From a virus: DNA of 22,528 nucleotides. The DNA lies in IMG/VR virus record IMGVR_UViG_3300021349_000011, positions 1 to 22,528 of that record. One strand, written 5' to 3'. Shown here piece by piece: positions 2,506 to 6,684 of the stretch. Numbering within the stretch: position 1 is the stretch's first letter; each line of letters opens with the position of its first letter. Below the pieces are notes generated by a model that was not told the origin of the DNA, searched no databases, and worked only from the letters and a program-made list of their open reading frames with translations. Both the position numbers and the translations under genes were made by a program.

Positions 2506-2841
2506 ATGAACAAAAAAAGCACCAAAAAAGCCGGTTTTGATGCGGAAATTCCCGCGCCGGATTGGCATCCTGCCGACATCAAATCGGCACTCAACAAGGC
2601 GGGTTATACGCTGTCTTCGTTGGCCGAAGAACTGGGTTTAAAAAGCGGGTCGATGCTGTCAAAAGCGTTAACGCTCAGTCAACCAAAAGCAGAGCGAGAC
2701 ATTGCCGAGGCGATCGGGGTAAAGCCTCAGGTGATTTGGCCCGGTCGTTATGAAGCAGACGGCACCCGCAAGTTGCAGGGGTTCCAGAAGTTACAAAGAC
2801 GAGGTCGCCGGAAAGCCCAGACCGACGGAGAGCAAGCATGA
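2506..2841 (+). CDS. ner: Ner-like DNA-binding regulator
   Basis: This 111-residue protein matches the Ner/Nlp family. It contains DWHPADIKSALNKAGYTLSS (residues 19-38), an HTH with SGSMLSKALTLSQPKAE, and the family signature GVKPQVIWPGRY (residues 71-82). In Mu, Ner is the first early gene and dampens transcription from both the early and repressor promoters. Here it is likewise the first gene after the operator, with a GGAG ribosome binding site. A basic tail (QRRGRRKAQTDGEQA) extends beyond the usual Ner length of about 75 residues. It overlaps the next gene by 4 bp (ATGA). Confidence 0.9.
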   Translation: MNKKSTKKAGFDAEIPAPDWHPADIKSALNKAGYTLSSLAEELGLKSGSMLSKALTLSQPKAERDIAEAIGVKPQVIWPGRYEADGTRKLQGFQKLQRRGRRKAQTDGEQA

Positions 2842-3296
2842 GCCGCCATCGTTATCCCGCCTCATTAAGTGAGATAGCTGTCGCTCTTGGGAAAGTCAAT
2901 CGCACAATTGCGCGTATGGCAGAAAATGGCTGCTGGAAATATACCGAAAAACCTACACATTCCCGCTATAAAAAACGCTTTTTTGAGCTTAAAGACTTGC
3001 CAAACGAGATATGCACCGCGATTTTAAAGAAACGATTAAACGGGATGATATCAGTAAGGCTTGAAGCTGATCAGGCAGAAATATTAACGACAAACCCAAA
3101 TGAAGCCGCTGTTATCCAGGAATTAAGTGAGGCTGAGGTTATTGAGGAACTGGCCGATAAAATCGTCCGGTTGGTAAGAGCCGAGATCGATAAAAACGGT
3201 AGTAACTGCCCGGCTGAAAGAGCTCTACTGCTGGCGCAGCACAGACTGTTTGGGGTGGTTTACCTGCGGCAATTATTCACCGGTAATATTCTCTAA
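2838..3296 (+). CDS. Stand-alone Mu-type winged-HTH protein (paralogue of transposase N-terminus)
   Basis: A 152-residue protein. Residues 1-70 align with the N-terminal Mu-type HTH of the transposase encoded just downstream: here SRYKKRFFELKDLPNEI, there GRYKKRLYALKDLPKAI, with the same spacing to an upstream TIARMAENGCWKY / SVERKADKEDWNY segment. In Mu, this domain (MuA Ialpha and the repressor N-terminus) binds the operator/enhancer. Residues 75-152 are acidic and helical (LSEAEVIEELADKIVRLV) with no catalytic domain. I infer a regulator that binds the same enhancer or operator sites as the transposase. ATGA overlap with ner indicates co-translation. Confidence 0.8.
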   Translation: MSRHRYPASLSEIAVALGKVNRTIARMAENGCWKYTEKPTHSRYKKRFFELKDLPNEICTAILKKRLNGMISVRLEADQAEILTTNPNEAAVIQELSEAEVIEELADKIVRLVRAEIDKNGSNCPAERALLLAQHRLFGVVYLRQLFTGNIL

Positions 3297-3320: not shown

Positions 3321-5738
3321 ATGAGCCTGCTTAACGATCCTGCCACAGCCGAGGAAATATCTGATCGTATCGGAATAACTCCTAGATCTGTTGAGAGAAA
3401 GGCAGATAAAGAAGACTGGAACTATAGCGAATTGCCTGGAAGAGGTCGTTATAAAAAGCGTTTATATGCCCTGAAAGATTTACCCAAGGCCATACGGGAA
3501 GCCGTATTTGATTATCGATTTAACCAGGAGACACACCATGCCCAAAGCAACAAAACCGGACAATCTACACAGCCTGCCTATACTCCAGACCGTCGAAGAT
3601 ATGACGGAGGCGCAGACCGACGCGCTGCTGGATCTGGAGACGTACTTGACGCTGTACCAAATCGACCTGCTGTTGAAGGCGGCGACCTCCCCCGACTGGC
3701 AAGTGCCGTTGTGGGGCCATCCCAAGAAAGAGAGGTGGGCTGTGGCCCTGGCGGCACCGGCTTACTGCCTGCCGTCGATTCTGGAGGAGCTGGAGTTGCG
3801 GGAGTTCCTGCAATGCAAGGAACTGAAACGGCTGCAATTGATCCGGTTAATCCGGCTGGACGCAAAAAAAGAGGTCTGGCAGTTAACGGCACGGGGGCAT
3901 CTGCTGGTGATTTGGCACCTGAGCACGGTGGCGGATTACCAAGCGTTATTGAACCGCGAAGGCCGGATGCACTCGCCAGCGACGACGCCCAGCGGGTGAC
4001 CGACGGTGCCCGGCAGCAGTTGTTGCAGTTTGCCGCCATTTACCCCGGTTCAATGGAAGCGGCCTGTGACTATTTAAGCACCGGTTATGCCAACGGCACG
4101 TTATCAGACGAGTTAAAGCAGGCCATTGAGCAGTGCAATGACAAAGTCAATAACGAGCGGCTGGGCCGGGTGTCACCGAGCACCCTGGGCAAGTGGAAAC
4201 GCTTGAAGAAGACCACCGGCCATTGTATACCGGCCAAGACCCGGCAAAAAACCGACTGGAAAAGCGTGTGGTGGATGCCGTTGTTTTTGGCTTGTTACCG
4301 CAAGCCGCAAAAGCCCAAGATTACTGAATCCTATCAGGAGTTTGAACAAGATTGGCTGATACAGGGCTTTAACAGCGCCGACCTGCCGTCTTATGGCAGC
4401 GTCAATACGCTGCTGATGCGGGTGCCACTCATCATCCGTGAAACCGGACGCTGTACCGGATCGGACCTGGCGGCGTTAAAGTCGTTTATCCGCCGGGACT
4501 GGTCAGGTTCCAGCAATGAAGTGTGGGTCGGTGACGGCCATACCTTTAAAGCCAAAGTCAGACATCCCGAGACGGGCCGGGCCTTTGCCCCCGAGGTGAC
4601 GGTGATTATTGACGCGGCGAGCCGGTTTATTGTGGGCTGGGCGTTTAGTTTGTCGGAAAACCAGATTGCCGTCTCGGAAGCCTTGGGCCAGGGCATGATC
4701 AAACATGGCAAGCCGCTGATTTACTACTCGGATAACGGTTCCGGGCAAACCGCCAAGACCATCGACTGTCCGGCCGGCGGCATGCTGGCACGGCTGGGGG
4801 TATCGCATGAAACCGGTCGATACGGCAACCCGCAAGGGCGCGGTTTAATTGAGGGCTTGTGGGACATTACCGCGATTGCGGTGGCGAAAACCTTCCCGAC
4901 CTTTCAGGGTACGGGCATGGATAGCGGGGCGTTGCGTAAAGTGACCCAGGCGATTAACAGCGCCAGGTTAAAAGGTGAAGTGCCGAATTTTGTACCCACC
5001 TGGCAAGCCTTTATGGCCGCCTGCGAAGCCCGTTTTGACTGGTACAACCACGAGCACAAGCACGTCAAGCACGGCGGCAAAACCCCGGCCTCGGTGTATT
5101 TTGCCAACTTTGACTTGAGTTGGGCGTGTCGGTTGACGCCTGAAGAGGAAATCAACCTGTACCGGCCCTTTATTGAGCGCACGCCGGATCGCGGGGAAAT
5201 ACGCTGGATTAACAACCTGTATCACTGTGAGTTGCTGGTGGGTTATCCCGCGAAGACCAAGGTGCGCGTGGCTTATGACATGCACAATGCCGATAAGGTC
5301 TGGATCAGTGACCTGCAAGGCCGGTTTATCGGGATTGGCGTCTGGAACGGCAACCAGGTCAAAGGCTTCCCGGTGTCCAAGGTGGAGGCCCTGAAAGACC
5401 AGCGTATTGACGGCATAGTCAAGCTGAAACAACAAGGCATTGCTGATGCGGAAGCCGAGCGCGGCACTGTGATTGACGGGGAAGTGTTGCAGCGGATAGA
5501 GGTGATACCCAAAGCGGTGGAAGCGCCGTTGATACGGATACCGGTTATTCCCAAAGCCGTCGAAGTTCCGTTAAAACGGATGCCGGTTATCCCGATCGAT
5601 GCTGAAGCACCGTTAAAACCGCTGGTGCTTGCCGGTGATTTTAACAGGCAAGAACCGGAGGAGACGGTCAGGACTTACCAGGAACAGACCTTGTGGCTGG
5701 CCAAGCTGTTGGCTGACAAGAAAGCAGCGGAGGAATAA
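3321..5738 (+). CDS. muA: Mu-type DDE transposase (MuA) with extended linker
   Basis: An 805-residue transposase that would nick and join phage ends for integration and replicative transposition. Residues 1-72 form the Mu-type HTH. Residues 73-220 are a Gly/Ala/Arg/Pro-rich linker with few large hydrophobics, overlapping another gene in a different frame (3538-3999). Residues 222-340 form the end-binding region. The DDE core has D405 (VGDGHTF), D471 (YYSDNGSG) and E511 (GLIEGLWD), the classic Mu family positions shifted about 135 residues later than in Mu. The C-terminal part carries three 14-residue repeats and ends in a charged tail. MuA of Mu has 663 residues, so the excess of about 140 matches the linker. 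GGGAGGAG precedes the ATG ideally. Confidence 0.95.
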   Translation: MSLLNDPATAEEISDRIGITPRSVERKADKEDWNYSELPGRGRYKKRLYALKDLPKAIREAVFDYRFNQETHHAQSNKTGQSTQPAYTPDRRRYDGGADRRAAGSGDVLDAVPNRPAVEGGDLPRLASAVVGPSQEREVGCGPGGTGLLPAVDSGGAGVAGVPAMQGTETAAIDPVNPAGRKKRGLAVNGTGASAGDLAPEHGGGLPSVIEPRRPDALASDDAQRVTDGARQQLLQFAAIYPGSMEAACDYLSTGYANGTLSDELKQAIEQCNDKVNNERLGRVSPSTLGKWKRLKKTTGHCIPAKTRQKTDWKSVWWMPLFLACYRKPQKPKITESYQEFEQDWLIQGFNSADLPSYGSVNTLLMRVPLIIRETGRCTGSDLAALKSFIRRDWSGSSNEVWVGDGHTFKAKVRHPETGRAFAPEVTVIIDAASRFIVGWAFSLSENQIAVSEALGQGMIKHGKPLIYYSDNGSGQTAKTIDCPAGGMLARLGVSHETGRYGNPQGRGLIEGLWDITAIAVAKTFPTFQGTGMDSGALRKVTQAINSARLKGEVPNFVPTWQAFMAACEARFDWYNHEHKHVKHGGKTPASVYFANFDLSWACRLTPEEEINLYRPFIERTPDRGEIRWINNLYHCELLVGYPAKTKVRVAYDMHNADKVWISDLQGRFIGIGVWNGNQVKGFPVSKVEALKDQRIDGIVKLKQQGIADAEAERGTVIDGEVLQRIEVIPKAVEAPLIRIPVIPKAVEVPLKRMPVIPIDAEAPLKPLVLAGDFNRQEPEETVRTYQEQTLWLAKLLADKKAAEE
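3538..3999 (+). CDS. Overlapping gene nested inside the transposase gene, function unknown
   Basis: This 153-residue frame is shifted relative to muA and lies wholly within it. Reasons to believe it: an AGGAG (3526-3530) sits 7 nt before the ATG; its codons use mostly G or C in third position like the phage's other genes; and the product looks like a folded protein (TDALLDLETYLTLYQIDLLL; WAVALAAPAYCLPSILEELE; KKEVWQLTARGHLLVIWHL, reminiscent of a winged-helix wing). The muA frame over the same bases reads as low-complexity linker. Its TGA overlaps an in-frame muA GTG (3996-3998), which could restart a shorter transposase lacking the HTH. I recognise no family. It is possibly a transposition modulator. 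Confidence 0.6.
   Translation: MPKATKPDNLHSLPILQTVEDMTEAQTDALLDLETYLTLYQIDLLLKAATSPDWQVPLWGHPKKERWAVALAAPAYCLPSILEELELREFLQCKELKRLQLIRLIRLDAKKEVWQLTARGHLLVIWHLSTVADYQALLNREGRMHSPATTPSG
5493..5618 (+). repeat. Three 42-bp tandem repeats at the 3' end of muA
   Basis: Units at 5493-5534, 5535-5576 and 5577-5618 encode RIEVIPKAVEAPLI, RIPVIPKAVEVPLK and RMPVIPIDAEAPLK. The DNA has diverged between units while the peptide pattern is kept. They lie between the transposase body and its last 40 residues, the part that in Mu contacts MuB and ClpX. Confidence 0.9.
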
Positions 5739-5774: not shown

Positions 5775-5970
5775 GATGAAAAAGGGCAGCTTACTGCCCT
5801 TCCCAACCTTGCGGGTACAACCGGAAGGATTTTTACAACCCTAAAACAGGATTATAACCTATGAGATACCATGATGAAAAAGGGCAGCTTACTGCCCTTC
5901 CCAACCTTTCGGGTACAACCGGAAGGATTTTTACAACCCTAAAACAGGATTATAACCTATGAGAAACCAT
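5775..5970 (+). repeat. 98-bp tandem duplication covering the muB start
   Basis: Unit 1 (5775-5872) and unit 2 (5873-5970) differ at only about two positions (ttgcggg/tttcggg and gagatacc/gagaaacc). Each contains an 8-bp stem hairpin AAGGGCAG-CTTA-CTGCCCTT (5782-5801, 5880-5899), an AGGA ribosome binding site and an ATGAGA start. Unit 2 supplies the real muB start. Unit 1 is a near copy of that start and its leader. The near identity implies a recent duplication. Confidence 0.95.
5861..5962 (+). CDS. Possible 33-residue leader peptide coupled to muB
   Basis: The duplicated start in unit 1 of the 98-bp repeat has its own AGGA site and reads MRYHDEKGQLTALPNLSGTT and onward for 33 residues. Its TGA overlaps the muB ATG (ATGA, 5959-5962). 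It is probably a by-product of the duplication, but if translated it would couple ribosomes into muB. It resembles no known protein. Confidence 0.35.
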   Translation: MRYHDEKGQLTALPNLSGTTGRIFTTLKQDYNL

Positions 5971-6684
5971 TATGTAAAAACCAGTAATCACCAGTTATTT
6001 GTGGCGATGTTAGCTGCGCTGGAAGCACGCACCCCGCTCGAAGCCCGTATTATGTTGCTGGCAGGCGAGCCTGGCGTCGGCAAGAGCCGCAGCGTGGATA
6101 ACATTGGTGCCGCATACAATGCCATTCACATCGAAGGCATTCCCGGCATGAATGTAACCTATTTGCGGGACTTGCTGGCCTATGAGTTAGCTTGTTCGGG
6201 CAAATCCAAGTTTTTACAGCATAAAGCCATTACTGATACCTTTGCCCTGCGCCAGCCCATGGTGATACTGGACGAGGCCCAACACGGGCTGGACAATAAA
6301 GCCAATTGTATTGAGTTTCTCCGGCGTATCTGTGAGAAGGCAGGCAGCGTATTAATTATGGTCTGCCATAACAGTGAGAAACACCGCTTTGGCGAGCACA
6401 GGATGGCCCATATCGCCACGCGGATCAGTGCCCTGGTGGATTTTGTACCGGCGACACTGGCCGATTGTGTGTTGTATTTTGACGAATTGTGCGAGGTGGG
6501 TATTGATGCCGGCATTGCCCGGCAAGCCTTAACCCAGTCGCGCGGGCGTTATCGGCTGTTGTCGGTGGCTTGCCGAAATCTGGAAGACTTCGCCACTGCT
6601 ACCGGTAAGACCCGGCTTACGGAAGCCGATACCAAAGGCATGATGCTTTGTGAGGATGCCATGAAGTCCTTGCGCAAAGGGTAG
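5959..6684 (+). CDS. muB: MuB-like AAA+ ATPase, transposition target activator
   Basis: The 241-residue protein has a Walker A GEPGVGKS (residues 36-43) and Walker B VILDEAQ (102-108), with sensor-like MVCHNSEKHRF and an arginine-rich ATRIS stretch further on. In Mu, MuB binds DNA in an ATP-dependent way, delivers target DNA to the MuA transpososome and stimulates strand transfer. At 241 residues it is shorter than MuB of Mu (312). It lacks an obvious N-terminal HTH extension and is closer in form to the AAA ATPases of B3-type phages. It follows muA as expected. Confidence 0.9.
   Translation: MRNHYVKTSNHQLFVAMLAALEARTPLEARIMLLAGEPGVGKSRSVDNIGAAYNAIHIEGIPGMNVTYLRDLLAYELACSGKSKFLQHKAITDTFALRQPMVILDEAQHGLDNKANCIEFLRRICEKAGSVLIMVCHNSEKHRFGEHRMAHIATRISALVDFVPATLADCVLYFDELCEVGIDAGIARQALTQSRGRYRLLSVACRNLEDFATATGKTRLTEADTKGMMLCEDAMKSLRKG

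Follow-up and report, generated by a model that had tools for sequence, protein, structure and literature searches.

Among the closest described systems, the phage gene Rz1 is embedded in the +1 frame of Rz, with one frame flexible in those parts where constraint acts on the other (PMC5295617), and a survey of spanins reported no family that mixes embedded genes with other architectures (PMC6139136). Internal overlaps in the +1 frame are reported to be in excess in general (PMC8227390). In the MuA transposase of phage Mu, insertions in the linker between domains Iα and Iβ (amino acids 65–89) are well tolerated and often raise the activity (PMC3362531). Fully nested genes under dual selection have seldom been shown in double-stranded DNA phages, and for a nested gene in a Mu-like transposase we found no report, within the limits of the open-access literature. 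Here, we describe such a gene inside muA of the window, i.e., the whole stretch of 22,528 nucleotides of viral DNA that was analysed (Table 1).

The muA product belongs to the MuA/DDE group of Mu-like transposases, based on the presence of both a DDE core and the Mu C-terminal domain. The match to the latter (PF09299) was over the cut-off, and that to rve was slightly under its own. Alignment identified D405, D471 and E511 as the DDE residues, which are invariant, and placed the first of them 136 residues later than D269 of Mu. At the N-terminus, the Pfam match to HTH_Tnp_Mu_1 was weak (0.071, under the cut-off). Modelling of MuA residues 1–320 returned a folded N-terminal domain, a pLDDT of about 30 for residues 77–218, and an end-binding segment that is folded from residue 215. 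The inner gene (muA codons 73–227) corresponds to this disordered stretch, which joins two folded domains and is the Iα–Iβ linker. A preliminary description, made from the sequence alone, had called this part of the muA frame a low-complexity linker, which agrees with its composition and predicted disorder. MuA proteins of relatives without the inner gene have about 645–670 aa and a short linker, and the alignment to known-phage MuA relatives without the extra stretch skips from approximately residue 70 to approximately residue 220 of the window protein. The excess length of MuA therefore equals the nested gene, as had been proposed.

Table 1. Features of the muA region (positions in the window)
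Feature	Position	Strand	Evidence
Ner-like regulator	2506..2841	+	HTH_35 6e-24; phrog_769
muA transposase gene, 805 aa	3321..5738	+	Pfam Mu-transpos_C 1.4e-12; rve 3.1e-07; phrog_310 transposase 3e-114
MuA N-terminal domain (Iα-like, enhancer-binding type), residues 1–76	3321..3548	+	confident helical/winged model, pLDDT ~76–90
Shine-Dalgarno AGGAG of the nested gene, 7 nt upstream of ATG	3526..3530	+	sequence
Nested gene, 153 aa, +1 frame within muA, predicted MarR-like winged-helix product	3538..3999	+	homologues in 15 other distinct muA genes; substitution tests; structure
muA-frame linker, residues 77–218, predicted disordered, Gly/Ala/Ser/Asp/Arg-rich	3549..3974	+	pLDDT <50; composition
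muA in-frame GTG overlapping the nested stop, proposed restart, not conserved	3996..3998	+	comparison of relatives
muB-like ATPase gene	5959..6684	+	AAA_22 3.9e-10; phrog_296 DNA transposition protein 3e-23

Immediately upstream of muA, the MuA N-terminal domain occurs a second time as a separate unit (2838–3296), 42% identical over 62 aa to that of muA, and a relative, L015, has its own copy at 2062–2358 (65% to its muA); such a copy could compete for the enhancer. To the left of the phage, an ORF of 380 aa (326–1468) has the look of an ATP-grasp-type host gene, which suggests a prophage boundary ahead of the regulator region, the ORF having been judged by eye only.

The nested frame runs from the ATG at 3538 to the TGA at 3997–3999 (153 codons), is offset by +1 and lies entirely inside muA. 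The preliminary description had pointed to this frame, to the AGGAG 7 nt ahead of its ATG and to its preference for G or C at third positions; the coordinates proved correct, and GC3 was 0.76 for the inner frame vs 0.68 for the muA core. Across the 19 other genes of the window, the equivalent frame contained 6.1 stops per 100 codons and not one of 1,679 stretches of 153 codons was open; the nested frame is therefore not due to chance. A promoter-like −10/−35 match at 3557–3584 was no better than chance. The GTG at 3996 had been suggested as a possible restart for the transposase. The codon is present in the window but not conserved among relatives, with a matching TTG only in L014, L015 and L088 and nothing in most others, and the restart was rejected for lack of conservation among the phages carrying the nested gene. 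An antisense ORF of 153 aa over the same bases (3578–4039) was also rejected, since the antisense frames have stops in nearly all relatives.

MuA relatives were gathered by two alignment-based scans of viral contigs, a scan of genome contigs and whole-genome searches. Complete copies of the inner gene were found in 16 distinct muA genes, i.e., that of the window and those of 15 other Mu-like phages or prophages. Eleven carriers have a first core type (the window, L007, L009, L010, L014, L015, L016, L087, L088, L089 and L107; L008, a near-copy of L007, was not counted apart), and five have a second, divergent core type (L153, L154, L155, L156 and L159). A partial copy in L152, ended by the contig edge, stands outside the 16. 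The sources were viral contigs of IMG/VR, 7 of the 311 genomes of the order Methylococcales and one Rhodocyclaceae MAG; none was found in 368 further genomes of the wider class or in 397 of another order. In every complete carrier the inner gene lies in +1, begins with ATG at muA codon 71–83 and extends up to the next conserved segment of MuA. It is 94 to 157 codons long, and the length of the muA linker varies in step. All 16 are embedded overlapping genes, each lying complete within another gene but read in a different frame. A long-linker homologue with stops in the inner frame would have refuted the preliminary description, and no such homologue was found. AGGAG, GGAGG or AAGGA precedes the inner ATG in all 11 first-type carriers; among second-type carriers the Shine-Dalgarno sequence is weaker or missing, with none clear in two of the five (L153 and L154). 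A survey of 171 related muA loci for inner ORFs that have at least 75 aa and a preceding Shine-Dalgarno sequence yielded 17 in +1, two of which belong to near-identical phages, and one in +2.

Searches of the nested protein against Pfam, PHROGs, a phage database (tblastn) and PDB sequences yielded nothing convincing, and viral-contig scans with a single nested protein, a single MuA or a free-standing homologue returned no relatives. In the linkers of divergent MuA proteins, winged-helix-like ORFs in +1 were observed at L170:1586-1939, L168:2647-3036, L166:4501-5001 and L182:3170-3580. Only L168 reaches the profile (E 7e-4), and the four were held as candidates, outside the carrier count. Between L170 and its close sister L171, the stretch is present in one and missing in the other; a scan for the L170 type recovered the known pair and nothing further.

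Among the window, L007, L009 and L010, the nested proteins are 35–56% identical vs 17–39% for the muA linker; nested homologues outside the close group have low identity. In codon alignments, most differences fall at inner position 3 and the fewest at inner position 2, which is position 3 of muA. Constraint on muA alone would predict the opposite. Changes were scored by their effect in both frames, with ratios taken per site. Changes synonymous in the nested frame and nonsynonymous in muA exceeded the reverse by 3.05-fold for L016–L107 (p 6e-5), 2.48-fold for L007–L009 (p 5e-5) and 1.58-fold for L155–L156 (p 0.07). By these substitution tests, the inner frame is under purifying selection; inner changes unbiased toward synonymous ones, the other outcome named beforehand as a refutation, did not occur. 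Judged from such comparisons, the nested gene is real and conservation is stronger in its frame than in that of muA, which is under a weaker constraint to stay open and flexible.

Over the inner gene, the muA frame contains no stop in any of the 16 carriers. Shuffling of synonymous codons in the inner gene produced a mean of about 2 muA-frame stops. The product of the probabilities of zero stops over 11 carriers was about 10^-13.6, or 10^-29 with the codon usage of the muA core, although these products overstate the evidence, as the carriers are related and not independent. Second-type carriers behaved alike in the shuffling. L154 provides a cleaner control, since its nested copy is accompanied by a free-standing homologue located between ner and muA (L154:4931-5308): in the muA-equivalent frame the nested copy has 0 stops vs 10 in the free-standing one. 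At fourfold-degenerate sites the inner gene differs somewhat less than the muA core in most pairs, and muA therefore adds some constraint. These data indicate selection that keeps the outer frame open, and both frames are depleted of stops, in line with the earlier inference of selection for both from the open muA frame. Furthermore, stop-free synonymous coding in +1 exists for all 16 inner proteins, while the +2 geometry imposes at least one unavoidable host-frame stop on 13 of the 16.

The model of the inner protein (pLDDT 71, pTM 0.60) combines a two-stranded wing with helices, including a long one at the C-terminus, so that the product, earlier described as looking folded, is predicted to fold. 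Its Foldseek neighbours are mostly of the MarR family, with probabilities up to 1.00 and E-values of only 0.01–0.1, and VIA-align gave a Z of 9.1 over 99 residues; Foldseek against viral models returned weak helix-turn-helix matches only. No MarR match was obtained at the sequence level: positions 3538–3999 have no Pfam family, and no MarR model appeared among the matches of 12 members of the nested family up to E 1. We propose, with moderate confidence and on the basis of the model, that the product is a MarR-like winged helix. It is probably a small DNA-binding protein, both DNA binding and a regulatory role being inferred from the predicted fold.

On a tree of MuA cores the inner gene is patchy, with at least six changes needed. 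Carriers have short-linker non-carriers as neighbours in L153/L158, L155-L156/L157, L154/L161 and L089/L123. Similar N-termini were seen on distant cores, i.e., domain swapping inside muA: the MuA N-termini of L088 and L154 are 81% identical but their cores only 33%, and for L009 and L156 the values are 74% and 28%. The inner genes of L016 and L107 are 71% identical vs 45% and 55% for the flanks. The tree of nested proteins groups the inner genes of L014 and L088 with the second core type; it is poorly resolved and served for this grouping only. Exchange of the inner gene as a cassette by recombination is likely from the patchy distribution and these identities; it is not proved, because double constraint may also raise the identity of the overlap. 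A wider proposal, to which we give even chances, is that nested regulatory genes generally land in the Iα–Iβ linker of Mu-like transposases. Cassettes with small winged-helix genes would be inserted, swapped and lost there, always in +1 and across very different cores, and the transposase would evolve its disordered tether in the other frame of an inserted gene.

Our preferred reading, which we consider likely, is that one stretch of DNA yields two proteins, i.e., full MuA and an internally initiated MarR-like regulator within a permissive linker; translation, DNA binding and the regulatory role are inferred. The muA gene would be translated in frame 0 over its full length, and ribosomes would also initiate separately at ATG 3538, served by the AGGAG ahead of it, to produce the small +1 gene product. 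This MarR-like winged helix would most likely bind DNA as a dimer and act as a regulator, expressed alongside the transposase in the early lytic phase. In the muA frame, the overlap would be a mere flexible tether from the N-terminal enhancer-binding domain to the end-binding domain. As this spot tolerates insertions in Mu, the inner gene would cost almost no genome length, and it would fit +1 because every host-frame stop can be removed by synonymous changes at inner third positions. The pair may act as an exchangeable cassette, with some phages having it, short-linker sisters lacking it and one copy standing free. Dual conservation, position, frame and stop avoidance are established as far as sequence comparison allows, and dual coding of the overlap is well supported on the same footing. 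Internal initiation at the inner ATG is strongly suggested, in the absence of transcript, ribosome or protein data.

It could be argued that only the inner gene matters, muA having been broken by the insertion, the transposase being made from a restart at GTG 3996 or as separate pieces, and the open muA frame being a by-product of GC-rich codons. The overlap of that GTG with the nested TGA, the TTG there in three relatives, and the activity of MuA without Iα (PMC3362531) are in favor of this; however, the restart codon is missing in most carriers, muA is open in all 16 carriers, more than nested codon usage would account for, the free-standing copy has its 10 stops, and in most pairs fourfold synonymous sites vary less in the inner gene than in the muA core, leaving this explanation highly improbable. 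The inverse, that only muA matters and codon bias over a low-complexity linker has opened the inner ORF by chance, is scarcely credible: long alternative ORFs are favored in GC-rich DNA and the window also has the antisense ORF, but almost all relatives have stops in the antisense frames, and the conservation of the inner protein, the codon-position pattern, the ATG kept in relatives and the substitution tests contradict it.

Frameshifting is common among transposase genes, and +1 ribosomal frameshifting from muA would fuse the N-terminal domain to the winged helix, with no separate protein being made. The inner frame is open for 9–135 nt ahead of its ATG, as this would require, but several carriers have just 9–15 nt, occupied by the Shine-Dalgarno sequence, and the inner ATG is invariant; we regard such a fusion as very unlikely. 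A possible, though rather unlikely, alternative keeps the nested protein and changes its role, e.g., binding to MuA, MuB or a host protein as a transposition modulator, exclusion factor or counter-defence factor. A winged helix alone does not prove DNA binding, co-translation with MuA would suit a partner, and the patchy distribution resembles that of accessory genes, against which the best structural matches are mostly MarR-family regulators.

The host of the nested gene is the transposase of a much-studied type of phage, and genes are not normally looked for at such a place during annotation. This suggests that a family of phage regulators is being overlooked by annotation pipelines, and that a disordered linker of unusual length may betray a hidden gene within that of a phage protein. 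With carriers, empty relatives and a free-standing copy at hand, both the origin of nested genes (insertion vs overprinting) and the rule favoring +1 become directly testable.

Compared with known systems, the locus resembles the Rz/Rz1 spanins of lambda in that a complete gene lies wholly in the +1 frame of another. Unlike Rz/Rz1, which form a single lysis complex, the host here is a transposase and the guest is predicted to be MarR-like, and unlike the spanins the nested family has embedded and free-standing members as well as empty hosts. As with gene E within D of phiX174, the gene is fully contained in another frame (PMC8227390); phiX174 has a tiny single-stranded DNA genome, whereas the present gene appears to be an exchangeable insert in an interdomain linker. 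In its predicted topology, a two-stranded wing together with helices of which the C-terminal one is long, the product resembles the MarR-family regulators MepR, ZitR and MarR, from which it differs in having no significant sequence match to MarR models. The host protein shares with MuA of Mu the domain order, the DDE catalytic core and the insertion-tolerant Iα–Iβ linker (PMC3362531); this linker is short in Mu, with no nested gene known, in contrast to about 150 dual-coding residues in the window.
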